DNA of 64,000 nt. Origin: Allomeiothermus silvanus DSM 9946. Its GTDB lineage: Bacteria; Deinococcota; Deinococci; Deinococcales; Thermaceae. Below the pieces are notes generated by a model, which ran no database searches, was not told the DNA's origin, and saw only the letters and a list, made by a program, of their open reading frames with translations. The position numbers and the translations under genes were made by a program. How positions within the stretch are numbered: position 1 is the first letter of the stretch; every line of letters begins with the position of its first letter. The DNA lies in NCBI RefSeq assembly GCF_000092125.1, contig NC_014212.1:186001-250000 (forward strand), in the 5' to 3' direction. Below are positions 23,204-38,836 of the stretch, piece by piece.

Positions 23204-25841
23204 TCAGTTGAGGTTGAACGAATAGTAAGTGCACCTTCCGGTCCACACCGTGATCGGCCCCTTGCTGCGGCTAGGGTCGGGGGCGTTGACCTTTACGGTT
23301 ACACGGCAGTTGTCCGTGCCGAGCCCGGCGTTATGGACATTGTAGAGGTCGAAGACGTTGCTGGTGGAGGCAGTATCGGCGCGGAGGAGGTTATCAAACC
23401 CCGGGCCGCTCACGTAGAGCTTCCAGTCGTAGGTCAGGGCTTCGTTGCTAGGGTTTTCCACGGTAATTCCGCCGTAGTACCGGGTAGGGGCGGGCCCAAT
23501 GCGAAGGGTACAGCCGGTATCGCTCAAGACGATGGTACTGCCACCCGCCACCCTCACGCTCCCGCAGAAGCGGAACTGCCCACCGGTAAACTCCCTCGAG
23601 TACACCCCGTAATCGGTGATCTTGGGGTAGGGGTTGGGGGGGTGGGGGCAGCACGTTCAGGTTGAGGGTCTGGGTAGCGGTGGCCCCGTCGCTATCTTGG
23701 GTGGTCACGCGCACTTGGCGGGATCCGGTAGCCCCAAAGGTGACCGAGACCGAGCAGCCCGTACCTGCCGAAAGCGTATCGGGCGCATCCACTGACCAGG
23801 TGGTGGTACCGCATAGCTTGTTGATGTCGGGCTCGTTAGGGTCGGTGATGAGCGCGGTGATGGGGTAGGCCTCGCCCTGGTGGGGGTCTCCCCCGTATTG
23901 CAGGTTCAGGGTGGGCGGGGTGTTGATCACCTTGACCACGAAGCTGCTGCTGGCTTGGCTGTTGCCGTACTTGGCGAGGAGCGTCAGCGTTCTGCTGCCC
24001 ACCGAGGTGAAGGTGCGCTTGAGTTCGGGGCCGAACAGGCTGCTTTGGTCGGTGCTCCAGCCCCCGCTATAGAGGGTGCCGTCCAGATTTGAGGTCACGC
24101 TCAGGTTGACGCTCTTGGCCACGGGGTGGGTGATCTGGAAGAACTGGGCCAGGTTGGTCTCGACCCGGAGCTGTACGGTAGCGGGGTTGGTTTTGATGGT
24201 GATCTTGGGCGCTTCCGAGCCGCCCGGCGCGGCCTGCTCCTGCTTCCAGGCCTCGCTGCGGCGTCCATCGAAGTTCAGCACGCTCAGGGAATCGAAGATG
24301 CTGCTTACGTAGTCGGCGGGGACGTAGTAAAAGCCGCCGTCGCCCGCGCCGCAGCCCCAGGAGTTCTTGACGATGAAATACCCACCCCCGCCGATGTTGG
24401 GGGTCTGGCCGAACTGGCTCATGTCCTCATTGGAGAGGAATCCCACGATCTGCACGGCGTGGCCGCCGTAGGAGCCGGCCACCTCTTTGCCCTTGTCGTC
24501 GAGCTTGGTCTTGGCGTAGTTGCTCACCACACCGTCGTTTTTCACATCGTCCATGAAGCCTTTGTAGACCGGGAACGAAGCCAAGAGCACATAGCCTTGC
24601 GAGAGTTTCTGGCGCAAGAGGTTGAGCTTGAAGGCCTCGCCGTTTTTCCAGACCTGGATGGTCTTCGAGGAGGCCACTCCGGGCCCGCCAAAGCTTACCT
24701 TGGCGTAGCTACAAAAGGTGAAGATAAAGGTGGTGCAGACCCGGCGGCTTTCGTGGGCCGTATCCGAGCAGGTGCCGGTGTAGCCGTTGCAGCTGTTGGC
24801 ATACGAGTCGCTGTCGCCGTCTTTGACGCTGGGGCGTGAGGTGGCCCCGTTGTAGGTCCAGCCCCCCTCGCTGGGGAAGCTCTGGCCTTTATTGACCGCG
24901 GTCTCGAGGGCCTTCTCCGACCAGTAGCCGTCGGAGTAGTCGCTGGAGTCCCAGTCCTGCTTGACTTTGTTGACCAGGAACTGCTCGGAGAGGTCGGCTG
25001 GGTTGTTGTTTTGCACCCGCTCGCGGCTTTCCACCGCCCCGATCGCGGCGAAGGCCCAGCAGGTGCCGCGTTTGGCCTGGTTTTTGACCGGGCTGATGAA
25101 GTTCTTGAGGGGGAACCAGAAGCGCTTGACCAAGTTGGTAGGGGTGCAGGGGCCGTTGTTGTCGGTGCCGTTGCCAGGGTTGATGGCTTGGGGCCGGATA
25201 CCGCCGCCGGGCTCGAGCCGGGCCGTACGCAAACTCGCAGACTTGCTTCCCAGCAGGCTGTTGAGCTGCTCGAGGGCGGCCTTGACCTCGGCCAGCGACT
25301 TTCCCTTGAGGCTAGCAGGGCTGGGGGCTTGGGGTTTGAGGTCCTCGGGCAAGAGCGAGTAGCTCAAGGCATAATCGTCCAGGGCGTTTTCCACGCTCTG
25401 CGAGCGCTGGTAGGTTTCGGCAGCGTTGCGCAGCTGGGTCCCCAGGCCAAACAGCACCACCGACTCTCCCCCCGGCCCGCTTACCGGGCGGTCACCCTCG
25501 AAGCTGGGGCTGCCCGCGGCCTCGGTGAGCAGGGCCGCGGTGTTGGGGTCTTTCTCCGGGATACTGTTCAGGAAGTTCTTATCGCTTTGGTATTGGGCTT
25601 CTCGAGCCTGTTTAGCTGCGGCGACCGAGGCCGCACTGGAAAGCACCAGCTCGCCCGAGGCAATGCCTTTCTGGAACTCCTCGGGGCTGACCCGCTGAGC
25701 ATCGCTGGGGATCTCGCCTTTCCAAGAGTTGCCCTCGTTGAATAGGTTGGGGTCTGGCTTGCCCCCATTCCCGCCGGGCGAACAGGCCGCCAACGCGCTA
25801 ATGAGGATACCTACCATTCCCAGCCGCTGGAATGCTTTCAT
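23204..25841 (-). CDS. Papain-like (C1) cysteine protease lipoprotein, frameshifted
   Basis: Exported lipoprotein: signal helix with lipobox LAAC (Cys20), a pro-like region (about 40-230), then a papain domain with Gln255 in SPVKNQAKRGTCWAF, catalytic Cys261, His461 in GGHAVQIVGF and Asn493 in VKNSWGCGAGDGG. Two beta-sandwich (PKD/Ig-like) domains follow (about 545-770). The frame is broken at a run of seven C (plus-strand G at 23636-23642): as written the protein ends out of frame after 797 residues, while removing one base continues NPYPKITDYGVYSREF to a normal stop at 23204, about 878 residues. It is either a real mutation, a switchable tract or a base-calling error. ATG follows GGAGG and abuts the zinc-ribbon stop. 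Confidence 0.85.
23636..23642. repeat. Seven-base homopolymer at the protease frame break
   Basis: GGGGGGG on the plus strand, one base before another run of five G. Length 6 would restore the downstream reading frame of the cysteine protease. Such tracts are prone to slippage in replication and transcription. Confidence 0.6.
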
Positions 25842-26096
25842 CTAATTCCTCCTATCTTCTGGAACCCTGATGAGCTCGAGCCCACAGGTGCTGCAGAACC
25901 GCGCATACGGCGAGGTGATGGGGGCCTGGCAGCGGGGGCAGACCTCGAGCAGCCTTTCCCCATCGTTGAGGCAGTAGCGCTCTTTTGTGCTGGCCGGAAC
26001 GGCCCTGGCACAGCGCGGACAGATGCGGTAAAAAATCCCTGGTTCCTCTTCCACACGCTTACCCCCTTGCAAGCTGAGCGAACCCCAGCCATCCAT
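25842..26096 (-). CDS. Double zinc-ribbon protein
   Basis: 84 residues with two zinc ribbons: ICPRCARA paired with YCLNDGERLLEV, and VCPRCQAPI paired with FCSTCGLEL. No signal peptide or membrane helix, so it should be cytoplasmic. Its stop codon touches the protease start, and it starts 7 nt after the stalk-domain gene stop, so it is embedded in the operon. Such ribbons often bind nucleic acid or protein partners; its role here is unknown. The overlapping frame from 26092 codes for nothing recognisable. Confidence 0.75.
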   Translation of the reverse strand: MDGWGSLSLQGGKRVEEEPGIFYRICPRCARAVPASTKERYCLNDGERLLEVCPRCQAPITSPYARFCSTCGLELIRVPEDRRN

Positions 26097-26103
26097 TCGT
26101 GGG

Positions 26104-26820
26104 TTATTTCTGGCAGTCCAGCCGCACCCGCAGGCTGGGGGTAGGGGTGGTGTAGCCCGCCCCGCTGGCCCGGATGGAGTTCTCGAAGCCTTTGGTGTTG
26201 ATCTCGAAGAGCAGCTTGGTGGGGGTTTTGATCTGGTCTTTGGGGGTGTCGTAGCGGTACCAGAACTTGAGTTGATGGGTTACCACCCCGCCCGGCGGGA
26301 GATTGGCAAAGGTCAGCTTCTGCACGTCCAGAGCGTCGGCGGTAAGGGTTTGCGCATCGTCGAAGGCGATCTGGATACCCTGGTCACGGACCCCGGTGAA
26401 AACCGGCTGTACCATCTCCTTAGCCCCGCTGCGCAGCTCCACCGTCACGCCCCAGCCGGGGGTCTCGAGGGGGGTTCCGGCGTCTTTCACGATGGGCTCG
26501 AGCTTGGTTGCTTTGAAGCGCCAGATGCCATTGAAGAGGGTCTCGCCCAAGCAACCTTCCAGCGAGGCCCGCTGGTTGGCCCCGCCCGCGGTCTGGTTGG
26601 CAGGGGCTGGGTTGCCTAGGGTGAGCGTGGTCCCCTTGAGGCTATAGTCAATCCCCAGCTCCTTGAGTACCGAGATGGGCAGATAGGTCTTGCCGTTCAC
26701 CACGATGGCTTTATCGGCGGCCACCTGTCCATTTACCACGATGCTGTAGGTGGTGCCCGCGGCCAGGGCAAGGCTGGCCGCCAATACCAGAGCCAAGGTG
26801 CGCAATTTAGGGTCGAACAT
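26104..26820 (-). CDS. Secreted stalk-domain protein
   Basis: 238 residues: signal peptide (LALVLAASLALAAG), then a short copper-amine-oxidase-N-like 'stalk' domain (TYSIVVNGQVAADKAIVVNGKTYLPISVLKELGIDYSLKGTTLTLG), then a beta-rich domain with no family I recognise (about 85-235). The stalk matches the one in the 111-residue protein at 31859, which supports a shared function in both halves of the locus. Preceded by GGGAGAGGATC before the ATG. Follows the second large regulator by 111 nt. Confidence 0.72.
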   Translation of the reverse strand: MFDPKLRTLALVLAASLALAAGTTYSIVVNGQVAADKAIVVNGKTYLPISVLKELGIDYSLKGTTLTLGNPAPANQTAGGANQRASLEGCLGETLFNGIWRFKATKLEPIVKDAGTPLETPGWGVTVELRSGAKEMVQPVFTGVRDQGIQIAFDDAQTLTADALDVQKLTFANLPPGGVVTHQLKFWYRYDTPKDQIKTPTKLLFEINTKGFENSIRASGAGYTTPTPSLRVRLDCQK

Positions 26821-26931
26821 GATCCTCTCCCTTTGACCCTCAGGGTGCTGCCAGGCCGGTCAGATGGCGGTCAGAAGTTGGCCGGGTTTTGCCGATGGGA
26901 AAAGGGGCGGTGGGTGATGGCCAGGATTTGC

Positions 26932-29900
26932 TCAAGTAGGCGCCGGGATGAGGAAGCTCTGCCAGCTCCCCGGCAAAGTCTCCCCGACCTCGAGCATCCT
27001 CACCTTGGCTTCTTGGTATAGCCGACCCAGGCTCTTGTGGTTCCCCGAGCGGCGCAAGGCCTCGAGCGCCAGGCGCAAAGCCTCTAGGTCGTAGGGCTCG
27101 GCCTCGAGCAGGATCCGCCCTAACCGAGCGGCTTCCTTGGGGTCGGTTTCCAGCACAGCTTCCGCCCTCGAGCGTAGGGCCAGATGCACCGACTCGCGCA
27201 CGGCCTCGTAGCAGGGGGTGAGGCCCTCCAGGTAGACCCCTCGCCACAGACCGGTATCCTGGGTGCGTAAAAACTCCTCCAGGTCAGAGGTGATCGCCGC
27301 ACCCAAAGCGTAACCGGAAGGGGTGGTGACGATGACCGAAGCCCCCAACATCGAGCGCACCGTGTGAATCAGTTCTTTTAGCGAAGAAGCGGCTTTTTCC
27401 TCGGCCTCACCGGGGTAGAGGCGATCCAAAAGCTCGATCTTGCCTACCTCGCTCTTCCCGGCCAGGCGGGCCTCGAGCAGGAGGGCCAGCAGCTCCTGGC
27501 GCTTATGGCCCCGCAGGGGTTCGCCATTGAAGTAGAGGGAACCCAGGACTTCCAAACGCCGGGTGTCGGGCGGAGGGGGCGGGGTGGGCTGGGTCAGCTC
27601 GGGGAAGAGGCGCCGGGCCAAGTGGACTCCGTTGACCAGGTCGCGCTCCGCGAACCACTCCATCCGTTGCCGGGCGCTTTCTGGGTCTTTGAGGAGCCGG
27701 TCTAGCTCGAGGCCGATCTTGTGCTCGTCTACCTCCAGGTGGAGTTCCTGGGCCAGCTTTAGGGCCTGCTGCAACGCTCCCACAGCGGCTATCCGGTTGC
27801 CCAATGCGCCCAGGGCCAAGCCCTTGGCCCAGTGGGTTTGCAGGGTGTCGTAGGGGGAGTCCCCAGCGGCCTCGACCAGGCCTTCTGCCTCGGCGGTGAG
27901 GGCCAGGGCTCGCTCGGGGTATCCGGCTTGGGTTTGGGCGAACGCAGCGTCGAGGAGCACTTCCCGCAGCAACCGGGGGCTTCCCATCTGGCGGGAGTAG
28001 CGGAGTGCCTGCTCGGCGTGCTTGAGGGCCAGGAGTTTGGCGATGGGGGTGTCTTGGGAGCGGTAGAGCAGATTGGCCATCGAGTGGGTGGCGCTCAGGG
28101 GGCGGCTGGGGCCGTACAGCTCGAGGGTGGCAATGGCCTCGCTCAGGGCTTCCTCGGCCCGCTCGTAGTCGCCTTGTTCGATCAGCGCTTCGGCCAGCGC
28201 GGCCTGGGCGAAGGCGTAGGCCTTGGCGTCTGCGCTCTGGCGGCGGATCAGCAGCGCTTTCTCAAGGCACTCGCGCATCTCGCCGTAGCGCCCCAGCATG
28301 CGCAAGAAAGCCGCCCGGTTGACCAGGGCAGTGCCCTGCAGGCGCGGCACATCGAGCGGAGCTAGGATTTCCAGAACCTCCCTCAAGGTGGCCTCTGCCA
28401 GAGCGTATTCGCCCCGGTGGTAGTGGATCAGGGCTTGGGTGGACAAGAACTCGCAGCGCAGGGTGGGGTGGGCCTGGGCTTCGGGGGCGGCGAGGCCCTG
28501 ACGGACGAAGGCTTGGGCCCTCTCGATCTGCCCGGTCGCGAGGGCCGAACCCGCTACCGCTCGTAGCAGCTCTGGCGAAGGGTTGGGGTGAAGCTCGGGG
28601 TGGGCTTCCCAGGTTTCCAGAGCCCGCGCGTTTTCTCCGCCGATGTGATAAGTGCTGATGGATAGCGCGGGGAGGTCTACCGCTTCGCGCAGCCGAGGAG
28701 GGAGTTCACCGAGCAGGGCCTCGAGGTCGGGTACCCGGCCTTGCCGGGCCAGCAGGTGGGCGTAAAACCGCACCGTCTCAGGCGTCGCGGCGGGGGTCGG
28801 CAAGGCCAGCTTGACCAGCTGGGCGGCTTCCGGGAGGTCGTGGTGCTGGAGCACCGATGCGGCTTCCAGGGCCAGCTTTCCCCGTGCCTCGCCCTGGGCG
28901 TACTCCGCCGCCCGGGCCAGCCAGCGGGCGGCTTGCGCCTCATTCCCGAGCTGCTTGGCCCCCTCAGCGGCCCGGCGGAGCAACTCCAGCGCCGGTTTGC
29001 GCCCCAGGCCGGCAGCCCCAACGTAGTCAGCCGCCGCTTGAGGTTCCCCCTCTCGCAACGCCTCGAGCGCCTGTCGGGCCAGCCCTTGGCGGCGCAGCGA
29101 GGGCATCCGGCTAAGGACGACTTCGCGAAAAAGCGGGTGGGCGAACTTCCCACCCCGCATCAACCCTCGGCGTTGGAGTTCAAGATGGGCGGCCTCGAGC
29201 CCTTCCCGGCTCAGCCCGGCCACCTCCGCCCACAAGCTAGCGGAAACCTCTACCGGCAGGATGGCCCTGGCCTCGAGCACAGCCTCTACCGCGGGGTCCA
29301 GGAGGGTTTCCTCCAGCAACCGCTCGATCAGGGCTTCTACGGTCAGGGGTACGTCGCTGGTGGCTGGGGGTCGCCAGCGCCACCTTTTCCCGTCATTCCA
29401 CAAAAACCCCCGCCGAGCTAGGTGGCGGAAGAACTCCAGGGTAAAAAGCGGGTTACCTGCCGCTTGGGCGTAGATCCAGTCCAGCGCTTCCGGGGGCAGG
29501 CTGGCCCCGGCTTCGCCCTCGAGGAGCCGGCGGACACCAGCGGCATCCAAGGGTTCTAGTCGGAATGCGACGAAAGGTGCGGGGGGCATTACCCGGCTGG
29601 TAACGAGCAAGGCTACCCCCCGGGTTCGCTTGACCATCGTGGCCAGCTTCCCCACCCAGTCAAGCCGCTCCGGGCTCGCTTCGTGCAGGTCCTCGAGGTG
29701 CAGGATAACCGGGGCTAGTTCCCCCAGCAAAGCACCCAAGGCCGAGGCCGATTTTTCATTCTCGACGTGCTCCCCTTGCTCGAGGCGACGCAGGAGGCTC
29801 TCGGCCCAGGCTGGAAGCTTAGCGGGGGAGGGAAAGGCTCGGGTTAGCTCAGAGAGAGGTGCTGTGGCGTGGAGGCTGAGGCTGCGGCAGGGGGTTTGTT

Positions 29901-30060
29901 GCAAGAGTTCCTTCACGGTGTAGCTTTTGCCGATACCCGGCTCGCCCCACAACCCCAGGGCCAACCCCTCGCGTTTGAGCGGAAGGTTCTTGAGCTGGCC
30001 GATCAGCGTGGCATAGACAGGACGCATCGCTTCGACGCTCTTGGGTTCCGGCTGCAGCAT
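26932..30060 (-). CDS. Large ATPase-TPR regulator with C-terminal SARP/BTAD domain
   Basis: About 1042 residues, cytoplasmic. Order: AAA/STAND ATPase with Walker A GEPGIGKS (about residues 39-46) and Walker B VILHLEDLHEA, a NACHT-like helical region, a long array of TPR-type helical repeats (about 330-800), then a winged helix (LEVLGSLYFNGEPLRGHKRQELL, from about 834) and a BTAD-like helical domain to the end. SARP regulators usually carry the winged helix first, so this order is reversed. The frame allows ATG 30081, but I prefer ATG 30060: it follows GGGGGA and a TACCCT box, and the earlier ATG sits inside a hairpin. A signal-dependent activator of the adjacent protease genes is the natural inference. 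Confidence 0.75.
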   Translation of the reverse strand: MLQPEPKSVEAMRPVYATLIGQLKNLPLKREGLALGLWGEPGIGKSYTVKELLQQTPCRSLSLHATAPLSELTRAFPSPAKLPAWAESLLRRLEQGEHVENEKSASALGALLGELAPVILHLEDLHEASPERLDWVGKLATMVKRTRGVALLVTSRVMPPAPFVAFRLEPLDAAGVRRLLEGEAGASLPPEALDWIYAQAAGNPLFTLEFFRHLARRGFLWNDGKRWRWRPPATSDVPLTVEALIERLLEETLLDPAVEAVLEARAILPVEVSASLWAEVAGLSREGLEAAHLELQRRGLMRGGKFAHPLFREVVLSRMPSLRRQGLARQALEALREGEPQAAADYVGAAGLGRKPALELLRRAAEGAKQLGNEAQAARWLARAAEYAQGEARGKLALEAASVLQHHDLPEAAQLVKLALPTPAATPETVRFYAHLLARQGRVPDLEALLGELPPRLREAVDLPALSISTYHIGGENARALETWEAHPELHPNPSPELLRAVAGSALATGQIERAQAFVRQGLAAPEAQAHPTLRCEFLSTQALIHYHRGEYALAEATLREVLEILAPLDVPRLQGTALVNRAAFLRMLGRYGEMRECLEKALLIRRQSADAKAYAFAQAALAEALIEQGDYERAEEALSEAIATLELYGPSRPLSATHSMANLLYRSQDTPIAKLLALKHAEQALRYSRQMGSPRLLREVLLDAAFAQTQAGYPERALALTAEAEGLVEAAGDSPYDTLQTHWAKGLALGALGNRIAAVGALQQALKLAQELHLEVDEHKIGLELDRLLKDPESARQRMEWFAERDLVNGVHLARRLFPELTQPTPPPPPDTRRLEVLGSLYFNGEPLRGHKRQELLALLLEARLAGKSEVGKIELLDRLYPGEAEEKAASSLKELIHTVRSMLGASVIVTTPSGYALGAAITSDLEEFLRTQDTGLWRGVYLEGLTPCYEAVRESVHLALRSRAEAVLETDPKEAARLGRILLEAEPYDLEALRLALEALRRSGNHKSLGRLYQEAKVRMLEVGETLPGSWQSFLIPAPT

Positions 30061-30064
30061 ACAT

Positions 30065-30095
30065 CCCCCAGTTACCAACATAGGGTAGCTGGGGG
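30065..30095 (-). promoter_or_regulatory. Inverted repeat at the start of the second regulator gene
   Basis: CCCCCAGTTACC (30065-30076) and GGTAGCTGGGGG (30084-30095): 12-bp arms with one T-G mismatch around a 7-nt centre. A TACCCT box (30087-30082) lies within the upstream arm. It may be an operator for autoregulation or an RNA hairpin in the leader. Confidence 0.5.
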
Positions 30096-30119
30096 GGCGT
30101 TAAACCGCTGTTACGGGCT

Positions 30120-30776
30120 CTAGGGTGTGTATTTGATCAGCTCGTGGACTGCGTTCTGGTCCTCCTGCCGCACCAGCCCCACCCCTTTGGCGTACCACTG
30201 GGTGATGCGGTAGTTGATGGGCTGGCTGGTGCCCTTGGCACCGAACTCGCCTTTCAGGGTCAGCACTACCTTGAAGGTCTGGAAGGTTCCGGCAGGCACC
30301 TTGACCTGCTCCTGCGCCACAATCTGGAAGGTGATCTCGTTTTTGAAGGTGTAGACGAGCTGGCCTCGGGTCTTGTCGTGGGCGGTTATGGTCCCCTCGT
30401 TGGCATAGGTCCAGCTCGAGCCCACCCGCCAGCGGCCCTCGGCGGGGATTACAATGCCGCTGCTGGCTTTGACCTGGGTGGTGATGTTGGCATCGGGACC
30501 AAAACCAGAACTAAACAACGAGGGACTGGTGAGGCCCTCGGGGGTGCAGGTGTAGGGGCTTTCCAGCACCATCACAGGGTCGGTGTACTCATAGCGCAGG
30601 GTGAAGCCGCTGGCGGTAGCGTTGGTCACACGCATGGTATAGGTCTTGGATTCGCCTTGGATGGCGAAAGTTTTGCTCGAGCCCGCCTTGGCCGGGAAAA
30701 AGGGGTTGTCGCAAGCGGCCTGGACAGGGGCGGCTAAAACCAGCAGCCAAAGCATCAGCGTGCCGAATCCCTTCAT
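30120..30776 (-). CDS. Secreted protein of unknown family
   Basis: 218 residues with a signal peptide (GTLMLWLLVLAAPVQAACD). The mature part is beta-rich: SSKTFAIQGESKTYTMRVTNA, VGSSWTYANEGTI, YTFKNEITFQIVAQEQVKVPAGTFQTFKVVLTL and ITQWYAKGVGLVRQED. The segment VPAGTFQTFKV...WYAKGVGLVR is typical of DUF3108-like outer-surface proteins, but I do not assign a family firmly. 12 nt after the previous gene in the operon. Confidence 0.7.
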   Translation of the reverse strand: MKGFGTLMLWLLVLAAPVQAACDNPFFPAKAGSSKTFAIQGESKTYTMRVTNATASGFTLRYEYTDPVMVLESPYTCTPEGLTSPSLFSSGFGPDANITTQVKASSGIVIPAEGRWRVGSSWTYANEGTITAHDKTRGQLVYTFKNEITFQIVAQEQVKVPAGTFQTFKVVLTLKGEFGAKGTSQPINYRITQWYAKGVGLVRQEDQNAVHELIKYTP

Positions 30777-30788
30777 GATTTCCTCCTT

Positions 30789-31340
30789 TTAGGGGAGCCA
30801 CGAGAGGGCTTTTCGCGCCAGGGGCTGGAGGTTCTTCAACTTGGGCGGTTGCTGTCCGTCCAGTTGCACCGCCAACACCTGATTGCCCTTGCAGACCAGG
30901 ATGCCGAGGTCGTATGCCGTCGCTATGATGGGGTTCTTGATTGAGAGCGTGTACCGGAAGATCAGCGCCTCGTCGCCCAGCCCGCTTAAAGGCGTGGTTG
31001 TGATGTTGTTTGTTCCGCCGTCTCCGTCCCTCCCTTGCATCGCTGGCCTTAACAAGTCCAGGCCCATCGCAAACATGGCCTTGCTGTCCAGGGTCTGGTT
31101 ATTCCATTTGAGCGGGCCGACGAAGAGGTCTACCTGTAGGATTTGCAGGCCGCCAGCGGCGGGTTTGGGAAGTCGGTAAGCGCAGAAGCTTTGGTATTCA
31201 TTGGAGTCGCGGATCACCTTGCTTCCCTTGCCCAGCACCGCTTCGGCCTCGGTTTGGGTCAGCAGGGTGCAGGCATCCGTCAGGTTTGCGGCTTGCGCCA
31301 GGCTGAGCCAAAGTCCTAACAGTAGGATGAAACGCCGCAT
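30789..31340 (-). CDS. Secreted DUF3558-like protein
   Basis: 183 residues from ATG 31340, which follows AGGAGGCGAT; the longer open frame upstream overlaps the previous gene. Signal peptide (FILLLGLWLSLAQA), then DACTLLTQTEAEAVLGKGSKVI with a Cys-Leu-Leu-Thr motif as in DUF3558-type exported proteins, CAYRLPKP, and IATAYDLGILVCKGNQVLAVQLDG. It shares the DPC/DAC-LL-x-E pattern with its upstream neighbour, so the pair are probably old duplicates. Function unknown. Confidence 0.72.
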   Translation of the reverse strand: MRRFILLLGLWLSLAQAANLTDACTLLTQTEAEAVLGKGSKVIRDSNEYQSFCAYRLPKPAAGGLQILQVDLFVGPLKWNNQTLDSKAMFAMGLDLLRPAMQGRDGDGGTNNITTTPLSGLGDEALIFRYTLSIKNPIIATAYDLGILVCKGNQVLAVQLDGQQPPKLKNLQPLARKALSWLP

Positions 31341-31348
31341 ATCGCCTC

Positions 31349-31816
31349 CTAGGGTCCCGCTTTCTTCAGCCTCGGGGCCACCTTGCGGGCCAGCTCGAGG
31401 GCGATCTCGAGGGGAGCTTTCTTGGGGTGTAGGACCATCAGCGAAAAGCCCTGGGCGTAGAGGAAGACCCGCTCCTTCCCTTCGCGGGTGTAGAAGGCCC
31501 CCTCGCCCAGAGCGGTGTCCTTCAGGGGGGTGGGGTTCTCGCCCAGCTTGGGAGCCCCTTTGGGGTAGATGATATTGATATCCAGTTTGACCTCCACCCC
31601 TTCCCCGCTCCACAGGCACATGAGTACCGGCAGGCCGACCATGCCCTGGACCGCCTGGTTGGCGGGAGTGCTGGACTCCAGCTTAGCCCCGGTGGCCGCC
31701 GCCACCTCGGTCGCGCTCAGGAGCTTGCAGGGGTCGGGGGAGTTGGCCCCTGGAAGCTGGAACTGGGCCAGCACCGGGCTGAGCAGTAACCCCAAAATCA
31801 TCCATATCCGTTTCAT
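31349..31816 (-). CDS. Secreted DUF3558-like protein
   Basis: 155 residues: signal peptide (IWMILGLLLSPVLAQ), then DPCKLLSATEVAAATGAKLESS and MCLWSGEGVEVKLDINIIYPKG, the same layout as the next gene, with later FYTREGKERVFLYAQGFSLMVL. The stop lies 8 nt before the start of that neighbour. Probably an exported, disulfide-containing small protein; role unknown. Confidence 0.72.
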   Translation of the reverse strand: MKRIWMILGLLLSPVLAQFQLPGANSPDPCKLLSATEVAAATGAKLESSTPANQAVQGMVGLPVLMCLWSGEGVEVKLDINIIYPKGAPKLGENPTPLKDTALGEGAFYTREGKERVFLYAQGFSLMVLHPKKAPLEIALELARKVAPRLKKAGP

Positions 31817-32260: not shown

Positions 32261-34705
32261 TCAGTTGGGCGGTGGAACATAGGTCAGCTTGAAGGCGATG
32301 GAAGCTGAACCGGTCAGGTTGAGGTCATCGGTGACATAGAGCCGGATGGTTCCCCCGTCGTTGTCGAAGCCGCAGCCGTTGGCTACGTTCTGCGCCCCGG
32401 TGGTGTCCCAGGACCAGTAGGGGTCTTGGCCCAGATTGATGGGCGGGTGGTACACGGTGGGGATGTCGGTCTCGGCGCACCCCCCCTTATGGGTGGCCTG
32501 CCAGGTCCAGCGGGGGTTCTTGTAGGGAGCGGTTCCGCCCACCCAGGAGCCCATGAGGATCACGGTTTTACCCACGTAGTCAAAGTCACCGTTGGCTGGC
32601 GCGGTGATGGAGACTTGAGGCGGGCTGCTGTTGGAGGGGGTTTGCACGTTCACCGTCACGCTGGTCTGGGCGCTCTTGCCCCCGTAGGCGGTGGCCGCGA
32701 GGGTGAAGGTGACGCTGGCTGGACTGCCCGAGCGAATCTTGATGGTGGGGGTGCAGTTGCCGGTGATGGGGAACTGGTTGTCGCCCGCGTCGCTGCTTGT
32801 CCAGTTGCAGGGCAAGGGCTGGTTGGCAAAGCCCGAGCCGTTGTCGCCGGTGGCCTGGCCCACGAGGGTGTAGGACAGGGTGCGCAGCAGGGTGTCGCTC
32901 GGTTTGGGGCTCGAGATGCTCACCTGCGGCGGGTCAAAGTCGAAGCGGGTAGCCACGAAACCGGCCCCCGGGCCTGCCGTGCCCGCCATCACCCCGGTCT
33001 CGTGGCTGAAGAGGTAGCCCTGGTAGGTTGTCCCGTTGAGTTGGAAGCTAAACGAGCGGGGGTCAGACACGTTCACTGTACCCGTGAGTGCACCGCCACC
33101 GCCGTCAAAGACCTTGCCGGTGACGGCCCCGGTGCTGCCATTGACCGCGGTGATCGAGAAGAGACCGCTGGGAATATCCAGCCCATAGACCTGCCAGTTG
33201 CCCACATAGGCATTTAGGCTCACCCCGCCACCCGCGATGCCGCTCAAGTAGTCGTGGAGCTTGAGGCCGTAGAAGCCATAAGTCTTCCCGTCTCGGTTGT
33301 CCAGCAGGGTTCCCGCCAGGGTGCGGTTGTCGGCGGCCAGGTAGCCGGTATAGTGCATCCCGCCGAGTTCTCCAAAGCTTCTCGCTCCAGTGTTGCTCCA
33401 GTCAATGTAGAAGTCTATCTGCCGCCCGGCGATGGTACCGTTGACCCGCCGGGGTTGGTTGTCGGGGCCGTAGTAGGTTCCCAGGCGGCGCTCGCTGGCC
33501 CAGTTCGGAGAGTTTTTGATGATATAGGGGATGTGGTAGATGTCCAGCACCCCGCGCTGCCCGTCGTGGTCGAGGTTGTAGCGGCCCAGGAAGAGCCGGT
33601 CGGGGGGCTGGCCGAAGTTGGGCGGCAGCACGCTCTGGACTACGGCGGCCTCGTAGACCTTGCCCTTGGTCACGAAATCGTAGCTGAACCAAACGTAGCC
33701 GCCCTCGGCCCAGCCGGTACCCCAAGAGTTCTTCACCCGGAAGGCTTTTTTGCTGTCGTCATAGCCGACCATCAGCATGGCGTGACCGCCCCAGGTTTTA
33801 GGGTCGGGACGCGGGTTGTCTGCGATTTCCCATACGTCGTTTTTGGGGTTGGGGTCATCGGAATCGAGCAGAACCCCAAAGGCCACCTCGTGCCCGCCTG
33901 CGAGCTGGGTTTTGTACCAGTCCAGCGAGGTGAGGGAATTCTTGGGGGCGTAGAGCACCTGGTTGGCCCGGTACTTGGCGTTCTCCAGGGCAATCTGGGG
34001 CAGGATGGTGGTCTGGAAGGAGCTAGGAATATGCCAGAGGGCTTTTTCCTGGCTCAGGTTGAGGTCATCCACCGCACGCTGAGGGCTGGTGTCCAGGATG
34101 GCCGGCATCCACATGGAGGTGTCGTTGAACCCCCCCTGGTTTATATAAGGCATTTCGGTCTCGAGCGGGATGCCCAGCTCGAGGGTTGAGAAAAGCTGGA
34201 GGTTGAAGGTCACGCTGCCCCCGTCCCAGGGGCCTGGGGGATTTTCGCTGTGGCTGGGGGGGTACGGTGTGCCCAGTTCGTCGGTCAAGAGTTCCATCAG
34301 GTGATGTACGTGGGTCACCCACTGCTCCGACAAGTCAAGCGTCAGGCCATACTGCCGCTTGTACTGGGCCTCGATGGCGGCCACCGCAGCAAAGTTGGTG
34401 CAGGTTCCGCGCGGGTTCTGGTCTTTGACCGGGGTCTGGTACTGCGAGAGGTCTGCGCTAGCGGGCAAGCCCTGCGGTCTGACCGTTTGCGAGGCAGGTT
34501 GGGTTGGGGGCGGATAGCGATCGAGGTAGGATTGGGTGACCTCAGGTTTGTCCAACAGGGCGATTTCCCCATTAGAGAGCTTGTAGGCCGGGGTTCCATT
34601 GACGGTGGTAATGCCGCTGATGCCAGGGCCAATGGAATGGGTCGGCGGTGGGGTGGTGCAGGCTGCCAGAATGCTTAAACTTAGCCAAAGCCAGTATCGT
34701 TTCAT
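32261..34705 (-). CDS. Papain-like (C1) cysteine protease lipoprotein, intact
   Basis: 814 residues: signal helix and lipobox LAAC (Cys16), a short pro-region, then the papain domain with Gln96, Cys102, His308 in WGGHAMLMVGYDD and Asn326 in FRVKNSWGTGWAEGGY. The Trp that normally follows the catalytic Cys is Thr here (GTCTNFAAV). After the protease come a beta-rich region with repeats like LDNRDGKTYGFYG (about 360-600) and two Ig/PKD-like domains (about 600-810). Likely tethered on the outside of the cell membrane. The start follows GAGGAGG, 11 nt after the small gene upstream. Confidence 0.85.
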   Translation of the reverse strand: MKRYWLWLSLSILAACTTPPPTHSIGPGISGITTVNGTPAYKLSNGEIALLDKPEVTQSYLDRYPPPTQPASQTVRPQGLPASADLSQYQTPVKDQNPRGTCTNFAAVAAIEAQYKRQYGLTLDLSEQWVTHVHHLMELLTDELGTPYPPSHSENPPGPWDGGSVTFNLQLFSTLELGIPLETEMPYINQGGFNDTSMWMPAILDTSPQRAVDDLNLSQEKALWHIPSSFQTTILPQIALENAKYRANQVLYAPKNSLTSLDWYKTQLAGGHEVAFGVLLDSDDPNPKNDVWEIADNPRPDPKTWGGHAMLMVGYDDSKKAFRVKNSWGTGWAEGGYVWFSYDFVTKGKVYEAAVVQSVLPPNFGQPPDRLFLGRYNLDHDGQRGVLDIYHIPYIIKNSPNWASERRLGTYYGPDNQPRRVNGTIAGRQIDFYIDWSNTGARSFGELGGMHYTGYLAADNRTLAGTLLDNRDGKTYGFYGLKLHDYLSGIAGGGVSLNAYVGNWQVYGLDIPSGLFSITAVNGSTGAVTGKVFDGGGGALTGTVNVSDPRSFSFQLNGTTYQGYLFSHETGVMAGTAGPGAGFVATRFDFDPPQVSISSPKPSDTLLRTLSYTLVGQATGDNGSGFANQPLPCNWTSSDAGDNQFPITGNCTPTIKIRSGSPASVTFTLAATAYGGKSAQTSVTVNVQTPSNSSPPQVSITAPANGDFDYVGKTVILMGSWVGGTAPYKNPRWTWQATHKGGCAETDIPTVYHPPINLGQDPYWSWDTTGAQNVANGCGFDNDGGTIRLYVTDDLNLTGSASIAFKLTYVPPPN

Positions 34706-34911: not shown

Positions 34912-34917
34912 AGGGTA
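34912..34917 (-). promoter_or_regulatory. -10 box before the small gene of the protease operon
   Basis: TACCCT, then 6 nt, then ATG. The same hexamer lies before both large regulator genes (38508-38503 and 30087-30082). No good -35 is present, which fits activator-dependent expression (inference). Confidence 0.45.
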
Positions 34918-35000
34918 GAAAAGGCGGCGTCACTTTACCGTCACAAAGTAGGGCTTCGGGAGCAGGCGCAAGATTGAACTCGAGCCCACCGGATGCGGGG

Positions 35001-38000
35001 CTAACCCTCGGGGCCGTAGCGCCGCAAAAACCCCACCCTGAACTCGGGGAACCCCTCGAGCCCCGCTGCGATCTTGCGGCACCGCTCCGCCGCCGCTTGG
35101 CGATACTTCCGGGCCTGAGCGGGGCGGGCGGCGCGGCTCATGGCCCGGTACAGCTCGAGGGCCTCCAGCAGCGGGACGGTGTTTGCCGCCAGCAGGGCCT
35201 CGGCCTCCCGGATGAGGGCCGGGGTGTCTCGCTCGAGCAGAGCCGAAGCCTCGAGCCGCACCGCCAGCGCCCGGGCCTGAAACGGCGGGTTGGGCGGAAC
35301 CTCGAGGCGCTCTACCGTTTCCAACGCCTTTCCCGGCTCGCCCAGGGCGAGCCAGGCCAGCCCAGCCGTCCAGGCCGCCCGGGCCCCGTCGTGAGCGTCG
35401 GCGAAGGGTCCGGCCAGAAGCGGCTCGAGCCGCGCTAGGGCGGCCTCGGGCTGGGCGGTGAGCACCTCCCGGCGGGCGTACTGGGCTTGGAGCCAGGCCC
35501 GCAGCTCGTCCAGTCCGGCTCCTTCGATCAGTGCCTCGGCCTCCCCCAGCAGCGGCAGCGCTTCCTCGGCGCGGCCTAGGTCTAGGTAGTACTCCACCAG
35601 CGACATCCGCCGCCGGGCCCGGCCTTGGGCGATGCCGTTGCGTTCGGCCACCGCTAAAGCGGCCTGCAGCGTCTCGAGAGCCAAGCCGAACTCGCCGCGC
35701 ATCCGCTGGAGCACGCTCAGGTTGTTGAGAAAGATGCCCTCCTGCAAGGGGTCGGGGTGGTTGCCCAACAGCGCCCGGCCTTGCTCGAGGTGGCGCAGGG
35801 CGGCTTCCAGTGCCCCGGTCTCGAACTCAAACTTGAACAGGTTGAGCAGGATATGCCGCTGCGACACCACGTCCCCGGCGGCGACCGCTTCCTGGAGGGC
35901 CTGTTCCAGAATCTGAATTGCCCGGGCGGTGTCGCCCCCGATCCCCACCGCCCGGCCCAGGTTGCGCAGGGCCATCCCCTTGCCGCGCCGATCCCCCTCC
36001 GCCTGGAAAGCCGCCAGGGCCTCGCGCGCGTGGCGCTGCCCTGCCGCCAGGTCGCCTTGTCCCACGGCCTGATCTGAGAGGATCAGGTGGGCCTCGGCGG
36101 CGAGGGGGGAGAGGGGAGAGGGCTCGAGGCGGAGGGCCTGATATAGCTGCTTCTGGGCCTCATCGCCGCGTCCCAGGGTTAGCAGAGTCTGGCCGCGCTC
36201 GAAGAAGGCCCTGGCCCGCAGGACCTCTGGCAGGGCCGGGTCTTGCAGGAGGGGCTCGAGCCGACCCAGGGCTTCGCCATAGCGTCCGGTGTGCCGCTCG
36301 AACTTGGCCCCGGCCAGCGCGGCGCGGGCCTGTAACACCGGGTCACCGAGCGAGTAGGCGCTTTCTTCCAGCGCCCGCAACTCCTCCTGCCAACCTTCCT
36401 GCTCATCCAGGAGCCGGTACAACTCGGCCCGGGCCGCGTGAACCTCGAAGGCCGTGGGGCCTTCTGCTCCGTCTGCCAGGGCTTTGTCATACTGGTTCAG
36501 GGCTTCTCGGTTAGCGTAAATAGCCTGGGCGGCCTCGGCAGCCTTGAGCCGCCAAGGCACCGCTTCCTTGGGGCGCCCGGCCTGCTCCAAATGCCTGGCG
36601 ACCCGGGTTGGGGCCCCGTCGAGGCGGGCCAGAGTCTCAGCCAGCTTGCGGTGCAGCACCTTGCGGCGTTCGAGCGAGAGCCCCTCCTGCAAGGCCCGGC
36701 GCAGCAGGTCGTGGGCGAAGCCCAGGCCGTCGGGTTTTTGCTGTAACAGGCCGGCCCGCACCGCGACCTCAGCGGCTTCGAGTGCCTCCCAATCCGAGAG
36801 CGCGGTGGCCCCGGAGAGTTCCTCGAGGCTGAACCCTTCTCCGGCCAGGCTGGCCGCCTCCAAGAGCCGCCGCACCGCACCGCCCAGCCGGTCCACCCGG
36901 CGGTTCACCGCGGCCTGTACGCTCCTGGGGAGGGGCAACTCGCGGTAGTCCTCGGTCGCCTCATCGTAAGGAGTGCTCCAGATCCCCTCTTCCACGCGCA
37001 GGTCGCCCGAGGCGAAGAGCTCCTTGAGGGTTTCCAGGGCGAAAAGCGGGTTGCCTCCGGTGGCGTTGTAAAGCCGTCGGCTGAAGAGTCGGGCCTCGCT
37101 GCCGGAGAGCACCCGCACGAGCGCTCCGACCCCCTCCGGGGCCAGCGGCTTGAGCTCGATCAGCACCGCCAGGCCGCGCTCGACCTGCTGGAAGATGGCT
37201 TCTCGGATCGGCGGGATCAGCTCCTCGCCGCGGAAGGCCGTGATGGGATAGCTCAGCCGTTCGGGCAGCACCCGGGCCATGGCGTAAGCCGAGACCTCGA
37301 GGCTGGCCGCGTCGGTGACGAACTGCAGGTCGTCGGCGACGACGATCCCTACACCGGCTCGAGCCAGCTGCCGGATCACCTCGGTGATAGCCTCCAAGAG
37401 CCGCAGCTTACCCTCCTCGCTGGTGATGGGAGGCGGGGGTGCTTCGGCCAGCTCGGGAACCAGCCGTGAGACCTCCTGGCGCACCCAGGAGGGTAGCTCG
37501 GTTGCGCCCAAGAGGCTTAGTGACTGGCGCAGGGCGCGGGTGTGAAAGGCGTAGGGGATACCGCTATCGCTTGGACGGCCCTCCAAGAGCAAGAACTGGC
37601 CTTTGCTGCGGGCAAACTCGAGCATCAGCCGGGTTTTGCCCACGCCGGGTGGCCCCGAGAGGTAGAGGGCTTTCCCGGTCTGCCACGCCGCCTCCATCTG
37701 CTCCCACTCCCGCTCACGGCCCACCAGCGGAGGGTGCTCGAGGGCCTGTGGTATGGAGGGAGGTGCCTCCGAGGCGGGAGCCGGAGGCGGGGCTTGGCCC
37801 CGCCGCAGCCGCTCGACGAGTTCCAGGGTTTCGGGTAGCGGCTCGAGCGAGAACTCCCGCTGGAGCAGGGCCCGGTAGCGCTCGTAGCGCCCCAGCGCTG
37901 CGGCAGCCCCCTCGACCCGCGCGGTGAGGGCCAGCAGCGCACGCTGGAGGTCCTCCTGGAAGGGGTCGGCTTCCAGGAGACACCTCAGCAGGGCCTGGGC

Positions 38001-38492
38001 TTCCTCGGGGCGGGCTGCTTCCAGCTCCTTGGCTCGTTTGCGGGCGGCCTCCCGCCACAGCCCCTGCCAGTGTTCGCGCTCCAAGAGCAGCCAGTCCTCG
38101 AAAGTTGGGGCACCCCGTACGCTGAGCCCGGCGGCAAACTCCCCCCGGAAGCAAGCCAGCGCCCCCTCCCAGTCGGCCTGCTCGAGGCAGCGCGTAGTCT
38201 CAATCAGGTCTGAGGCGTGCCCACCCAAGGCCAGCGTGTCTGGATTGACCACTAGCAGTGCCTCGGCTGGGCTGCCGCGCAGCCGGTAGAGTTCCTGTCG
38301 CAGGTTGCCCCGCGCCCGCTCCTCGTCGGCTTGATCCCACAGCAGCCCGGCGAGCTTCCCCCGCTCCACCGGGCGCCCTTGGGCGGCCAGATACACCACC
38401 ATGGCCCACAGCTTGCGGGTGGGCAGCACAAGCTTTTGCCCGTTCAGGTGGAGCTCCGGCGGGCCGAGCAGACGTAGCTCCAGGCGGCTCAC
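35001..38492 (-). CDS. SARP-type ATPase-TPR transcriptional regulator
   Basis: 1163 residues, cytoplasmic. N-terminal winged helix (LELRLLGPPELHLNGQKLVLPTRKLWAMVVYLAA), BTAD helical domain (about 95-232, FEDWLLLEREHWQGLWREA...LLEADPFQEDLQRALL), linker, then a AAA/STAND ATPase with Walker A GPPGVGKT (280-287) and Walker B GIVVADDLQF, and from about 600 a long TPR-like array. This is the AfsR/large-SARP architecture: signal sensing by the TPRs, ATP-driven switching, DNA binding through the winged helix. The GTG start at 38492 has TACCCT 10 nt upstream. Its likely targets are the secreted protease genes directly downstream. Confidence 0.87.
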   Translation of the reverse strand: MSRLELRLLGPPELHLNGQKLVLPTRKLWAMVVYLAAQGRPVERGKLAGLLWDQADEERARGNLRQELYRLRGSPAEALLVVNPDTLALGGHASDLIETTRCLEQADWEGALACFRGEFAAGLSVRGAPTFEDWLLLEREHWQGLWREAARKRAKELEAARPEEAQALLRCLLEADPFQEDLQRALLALTARVEGAAAALGRYERYRALLQREFSLEPLPETLELVERLRRGQAPPPAPASEAPPSIPQALEHPPLVGREREWEQMEAAWQTGKALYLSGPPGVGKTRLMLEFARSKGQFLLLEGRPSDSGIPYAFHTRALRQSLSLLGATELPSWVRQEVSRLVPELAEAPPPPITSEEGKLRLLEAITEVIRQLARAGVGIVVADDLQFVTDAASLEVSAYAMARVLPERLSYPITAFRGEELIPPIREAIFQQVERGLAVLIELKPLAPEGVGALVRVLSGSEARLFSRRLYNATGGNPLFALETLKELFASGDLRVEEGIWSTPYDEATEDYRELPLPRSVQAAVNRRVDRLGGAVRRLLEAASLAGEGFSLEELSGATALSDWEALEAAEVAVRAGLLQQKPDGLGFAHDLLRRALQEGLSLERRKVLHRKLAETLARLDGAPTRVARHLEQAGRPKEAVPWRLKAAEAAQAIYANREALNQYDKALADGAEGPTAFEVHAARAELYRLLDEQEGWQEELRALEESAYSLGDPVLQARAALAGAKFERHTGRYGEALGRLEPLLQDPALPEVLRARAFFERGQTLLTLGRGDEAQKQLYQALRLEPSPLSPLAAEAHLILSDQAVGQGDLAAGQRHAREALAAFQAEGDRRGKGMALRNLGRAVGIGGDTARAIQILEQALQEAVAAGDVVSQRHILLNLFKFEFETGALEAALRHLEQGRALLGNHPDPLQEGIFLNNLSVLQRMRGEFGLALETLQAALAVAERNGIAQGRARRRMSLVEYYLDLGRAEEALPLLGEAEALIEGAGLDELRAWLQAQYARREVLTAQPEAALARLEPLLAGPFADAHDGARAAWTAGLAWLALGEPGKALETVERLEVPPNPPFQARALAVRLEASALLERDTPALIREAEALLAANTVPLLEALELYRAMSRAARPAQARKYRQAAAERCRKIAAGLEGFPEFRVGFLRRYGPEG

Positions 38493-38755: not shown

Positions 38756-38836
38756 GTCCCACTCCACTCTTAAGGCCAGTGTAAAGAGGAGGGGGTTAAA
38801 AAAGCGTTACAAATGACCGGGGCCAGAAGGGGATGT

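Follow-up and report, generated by a model that had tools for sequence, protein, structure and literature searches.

The window, a stretch of 64,000 nucleotides, belongs to the 3.72-Mb genome of Allomeiothermus silvanus DSM 9946, which comprises three contigs. It carries the following genes, domains and sequence elements:

23448..25841, minus strand, lipoprotein papain-family (C1) peptidase with PKD (Pfam; lipobox by eye)
25842..26096, minus strand, 84-aa double zinc-ribbon protein, conserved partner gene (DZR, E 1.5e-8)
26104..26820, minus strand, exported 238-aa protein, first gene of the putative target operon (signal sequence by eye)
26842..26847, minus strand, putative -10 element CACCCT, 10 bp after the TGACC repeat
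26858..26873, minus strand, operator-like direct repeat TGACC-N6-TGACC with 11-bp period, behind the regulator gene
26932..30081, minus strand, STAND regulator carrying a SARP domain at its C-terminus (ORF of 1049 aa, probably starting at Met-8, position 30060)
26935..27561, minus strand, C-terminal SARP-like domain of this regulator, OmpR-type winged helix then BTAD (fold models and sequence alignments)
27568..27588, minus strand, proline-rich linker, residues 832-838, pLDDT under 50
27592..29046, minus strand, TPR sensor, about residues 346-830
29080..30009, minus strand, NOD/ATPase part, about residues 25-334
30082..30113, minus strand, TAACA-N6-TAACG + N10 + TACCCT, upstream of the regulator
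32261..34705, minus strand, second lipoprotein C1 peptidase (Pfam)
34912..34943, minus strand, TGACG-N6-TGACG-N10-TACCCT, between the N-terminal-SARP gene and its C1 peptidase
35001..38492, minus strand, neighbouring STAND regulator with N-terminal SARP (Pfam)
38778..38809, minus strand, TAACG-N6-TAACC-N10-TACACT, upstream of the N-terminal-SARP gene

The regulator encoded at 26932..30081 is arranged, from the N- to the C-terminus, as a NOD ATPase, a TPR sensor, a short disordered linker and, in the last 209 residues, a winged helix followed by BTAD. Pfam placed AAA_16 at residues 40-152 and TPR repeats at residues 583-653 (TPR_12) and 513-671 (TPR_MalT). The sequences GEPGIGKS and LHLEDLHEA, which we take to be Walker A and Walker B, and the presumed GNPLF motif mark the NOD. 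Alignment of 20 full-length relatives revealed that the key NOD residues of the P-loop, the acidic Walker B and the GNPLF motif are invariant and that much of the tail is also kept, while the TPR part is variable; mean pairwise identity was 52% for the NOD and 61% for the SARP tail, the TPR being the least conserved part (39%). The in-frame Met-8 at 30060, which is also the boundary given in the earlier note, is the likelier start, since the TAnnnT element upstream abuts the first ATG of the ORF, and it fits the predicted promoter better than the ORF start at 30081.

The full-length model had a mean pLDDT of 85.0, with the disordered linker directly before the tail; its pTM was only 0.49, so the placement of the domains relative to each other is unreliable. 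The closest solved match of the TPR part was the MalT sensor 1hz4 (Z 28.6 and rmsd 4.0 over 350 residues), a top rank that amounts to a tie because unrelated TPR proteins followed at Z 28.5 and 28.3.

Pfam alone was insufficient to assign the tail, since the BTAD match of the C-terminal 209 residues scored 19.1 bits against a cut-off of 22.1; BTAD was listed at E<=1 in the tails of nine of the 20 relatives. A tail profile built from the 20 relatives gave AfsR as its top PDB match, both subdomains being covered (E 1.2e-5). The AF2 model of the isolated tail, built with 13 sequences, reached a pLDDT of 91.6, and all six of its Foldseek matches at E<=0.001 were AfsR or EmbR chains. Structural comparison (VIA) gave Z 12.4 over 213 residues with AfsR 8hvr and Z 11.1 over 205 residues with EmbR 2ff4; as the rmsd to AfsR was 5.5, the subdomains agree in fold but their mutual orientation may differ from that in AfsR. 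BLASTP between the two window regulators aligned residues 843-1020 of this regulator with residues 6-202 of its neighbour (E 4e-8, 32%), and hhalign of the tail profile against seven SARP domains of the same genome gave 99.1% (E 6e-18), the controls against NOD and TPR giving 0.1% and 9.1%. The tail thus has the OmpR-type winged helix followed by the BTAD fold that defines the SARP family. The earlier note had read the tail in this way and had staked its reading beforehand on the fold of the last ~210 residues, and it was borne out on both counts. An origin of the tail as chance TPR-like helices was ruled out, as the full-domain AfsR and EmbR matches outrank the TPR rows. Another protein of the genome, G000:C1:266274 (L006), likewise carries a C-terminal SARP but differs in its N-terminal part, in which no NOD or TPR was recognised by eye. 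A C-terminal SARP behind a different N-terminal part is seen in a 661-aa protein of this genome (L133:2215-4197).

In the neighbouring regulator (35001-38492) BTAD occupies residues 108-230, near the N-terminus, in agreement with the earlier note, whose placement of the SARP part of the first regulator after ATPase and TPR likewise agrees with the Pfam matches and the fold of the tail. The NOD and TPR parts are homologous (hhalign 98.9% and 99.4%) and keep their order from one regulator to the other; the SARP module has therefore changed ends and the protein is not reversed as a whole. The description "reversed" consequently holds relative to AfsR for the position of the SARP module, and not for the NOD-TPR order. 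Domain order in Pfam together with the BLASTP alignment to the SARP of the neighbour ruled out an ordinary N-terminal AfsR. A regulator of the N-terminal type adjoins the C-terminal one in five of seven fetched regions (L126, L127, L128, L134, in which the N-terminus of the former falls outside the slice, and L136), the exceptions being L129 and L135, the latter a slice of the downstream side only. On contig C2 of the same genome (G000), L131 and L132 each hold a copy of a 562-aa protein that has an N-terminal SARP and TPR but lacks a NOD; the same lipoprotein gene follows both copies.

Comparison with known systems showed that the regulator shares features with several of them. A P-loop NOD with Walker A, Walker B and GxP, a repeat sensor and an effector at one end place it among the STAND ATPases, for which an excerpt of PMC6468293 names the GxP motif. 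It shares with MalT of Escherichia coli and the LAL proteins the succession NOD, TPR and C-terminal DNA-binding domain, with a TPR fold near domain III of MalT; the sensor is MalT-like on fold similarity alone, and the output differs, being a SARP (winged helix and BTAD) where MalT and LAL proteins carry a LuxR-type HTH. With AfsR and the other large SARPs of Streptomyces it has in common the three parts SARP, NOD and TPR, the SARP fold and the promoter geometry, but in AfsR the SARP is N-terminal, followed by NOD and TPR, and here it is C-terminal. The NOD also differs, being NB-ARC in the large SARPs as described in an excerpt of PMC10972967, which likewise gives their SARP domain as N-terminal, and AAA_16 here. 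PH0952 of Pyrococcus horikoshii is likewise a STAND protein with a TPR sensor and a DNA-binding effector. EmbR of Mycobacterium tuberculosis shares the SARP fold; it consists of a SARP followed by an FHA domain and is not known to have a STAND core. The earlier note was right that DNA binding lies beside the TPR sensor, and overstated the oddity of this, because MalT is laid out likewise and the effector of STAND proteins may stand at one end or the other (PMC6468293, in excerpt). The succession NOD, TPR and DNA-binding domain is the ordinary, already known layout of MalT, and the SARP as C-terminal tail on it is a new variant. An earlier description of a STAND protein with C-terminal SARP was not found in the literature searched, which lay mostly outside subscription papers, and its absence is not thereby proven.

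Whole-protein matches at E<=1e-10 were present in 44 of 111 Deinococcota genomes, some of them partial or with only NOD or TPR in common, and matches of the tail alone in 58 of 111, weak general matches included; two genomes had ten tail matches each. Full-length relatives occur in several Deinococcota families, often as paralogues. Six full-length copies lie on Meiothermus and Deinococcus plasmids, annotated as AAA family ATPase, TPR protein, hypothetical protein and, once, BTAD regulator; tblastn of the tail against plasmids, the sole search beyond Deinococcota, returned 6 records, all from Deinococcota. The tail alone forms a protein of 220-241 aa in four Thermus-like genomes, one of which (L079) is Thermus composti. 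The genes of three stand-alone Thermus tails, without NOD or TPR (L123, L124, L125), immediately precede that of a conserved 351-aa exported protein.

The earlier note mentions neither the operator-like repeats nor the zinc-ribbon and peptidase genes linked to the regulator. In 28 of 55 regulators, a double zinc-ribbon gene on the same strand was located less than 5 kb downstream; the 55 comprise hits above 100 bits other than the four Thermus stand-alone genes. Of the 45 zinc-ribbon matches found in the phylum, 33 have a tail match of at least 75 bits within 9 kb. Genes for exported proteins come next. The exported 238-aa protein (26104..26820) had no Pfam match. Ten downstream proteins were scanned, of which three were C1, four C39-like (one below its cut-off) and one S8, while two had no peptidase match; a further scan added two S8 proteins, and in the window the two peptidases both belong to C1. 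The neighbourhoods also contain RICIN lectin and S74 proteins. The frame of the downstream C1 peptidase gene seems to shift at a C-rich tract (23600-23660, and L136:17040-17060 in a genus mate), possibly through phase variation or sequencing error; several relatives have unbroken frames of 875-877 aa. The region between the two regulators (30120-31816) encodes small exported proteins, namely a DUF3108-like protein of 218 aa and the products of two overlapping frames, one of 155 aa and one of 276 aa that matches DUF3558 weakly; among 47 neighbourhoods these found no counterparts but themselves.

Alignment of the DNA behind the regulator genes revealed CTGACC twice, 11 bp apart. Of 43 loci (L104 being left out as second record of the species in L080), 20 carry two TRACC copies with a period of 11 on the coding strand, many of these 20 being orthologues and not independent. 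Within the range 6 to 21, no period but 11 gave a pair at any locus; two loci had one at 22 (triple repeats), and the opposite strand gave at most one locus at any period; shuffles gave a mean of 0.07 and a maximum of 2. Because the TRACC core had been fixed after the first locus set had been seen, 20 further held-out loci were fetched. Nine carried the repeat, only at period 11 on the coding strand (3/14 regulator-downstream and 7/14 zinc-ribbon-upstream regions), and eleven did not; it was also absent from all five Deinococcus loci (L081-L085).

In 27 of 29 distinct sites YANNNT begins exactly 10 bp past the second TRACC, and TANNNT stands at the same offset in all 11 TAACG-type sites upstream of the regulator; these counts leave aside L101 and the first L117 row, which are identical to or overlap other rows, and the one TRACC-type row that lies upstream of a regulator (L097). 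According to an excerpt of PMC10936776, the repeats of SARP promoters lie 11 or 22 bp apart, the 3' one at 8 bp from a weak -10 element, CACTGT. The predicted sites have this geometry in sequence, with 11-bp direct repeats that end 8 bp before the -10 if two further conserved bases (G/A, then mostly G) are counted. Two of the three Thermus stand-alone genes have an 11-bp repeat of the same layout (wider core TVACS) with TANNNT, 4-5 bp past the stop.

In the whole genome, YTGACCN5YTGACC occurs four times, once at this locus, against two occurrences of the reversed-pattern control, and the composite pattern occurs 12 times against two for its control. The regulator cluster accounts for three of the 12, all inside a stretch of 12 kb, and the promoter of the regulator itself departs from the pattern by one mismatch. 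The other nine, all TAACG, lie outside the cluster, which suggests that other regulators use a similar promoter layout. Such TAACG-N6-TAACG-N10-TANNNT sites elsewhere in the genome include L165, L166, L168, L169, L172 and L173, of which two precede glycosyltransferase-like genes (by eye). A looser composite scan of the window, with two mismatches, was no better than shuffles (15 versus a mean of 10.96). Generic 11-bp repeats were seen behind other SARP genes of the genome in three of seven regions (L176, L177, L179), a count of little weight as it has no chance estimate. A second exact TGACC-N6-TGACC at 32312-32327, within C1 peptidase coding sequence, is probably due to chance. The composite pattern was not found near the N-terminal SARPs of five relatives (L126-L128, L134 and L136; searched downstream, and upstream where the start lies in the slice), and a single common motif for both window regulators was therefore rejected, though the window's own N-terminal-SARP gene has the pattern.

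The domains, fold, conservation, linkage and repeat geometry described above are results of computation. By analogy with MalT and AfsR, from which we infer the nucleotide switch, DNA binding and activation, the regulator is probably a MalT-like STAND activator with a C-terminal SARP output, gated by an inducer, dependent on ATP and acting on its own exported-protease operon. At rest the ADP-bound NOD would be closed and held by the TPR sensor. An inducer on the TPR would open the NOD, ATP would bind and the protomers would multimerise, so that SARP domains on short flexible linkers could bind side by side on TRACC-N6-TRACC. Bound 8-10 bp before the weak -10 element, they would recruit RNA polymerase to the operon downstream, which encodes the exported protein, the zinc-ribbon protein and the exported peptidase. 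The repeat upstream of the regulator's own gene might also allow self-activation.

OmpR-type response regulators likewise use direct repeats of about 11-bp period. The repeats may be real promoters recognised by a different OmpR-type factor, either a response regulator or the N-terminal SARP of the neighbour, with the regulator acting elsewhere. The same layout with TGACG or TAACG cores at the N-terminal-SARP gene, at its peptidase and at nine other genomic places speaks for this, but TRACC tracks the C-terminal-SARP family across several genera, placed either ahead of the zinc-ribbon gene or in the gap that separates the regulator from the operon after it, and the pattern is missing around the N-terminal SARPs of five relatives; we thus regard another factor as unlikely. 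A C-terminal SARP acting not as activator but as repressor, or as a tether taken off the DNA by the NOD switch, would be compatible with the site position, which would also suit promoter occlusion. We consider this quite improbable, as the sites are placed like SARP activator sites on weak -10 promoters and AfsR, the closest solved relative, activates (PMC10936776, in excerpt). A STAND immune or conflict protein, with the tail as nucleic-acid-sensing or effector part and the peptidases as effectors, would suit the STAND core, the divergent sensor, the patchy, paralogue-rich spread and the relatives on plasmids, but is hardly credible given the lipoprotein or export signals of the peptidases (by eye) and a tail with a transcription-activator fold and matching operator geometry.

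Under the activator reading, it may be suggested tentatively that SARP-tailed STAND activators form a self-contained, repeatedly duplicated Deinococcota module of regulator, 11-bp operator, dedicated double zinc-ribbon partner and exchangeable exported C1, C39 or S8 peptidase, in which the zinc-ribbon protein might be a co-sensor or feedback partner and to which some genomes would add a second STAND with the SARP at the opposite end. The cluster holds two STAND proteins with the same NOD-TPR order and the SARP at opposite ends, each adjoining a predicted 11-bp-repeat promoter and an exported peptidase, and so offers a natural test of whether the end that carries the effector matters. SARP promoter logic, described in the excerpted literature for antibiotic clusters of Streptomyces, would also be extended to exported proteases of Deinococcota, with a concrete candidate operator.
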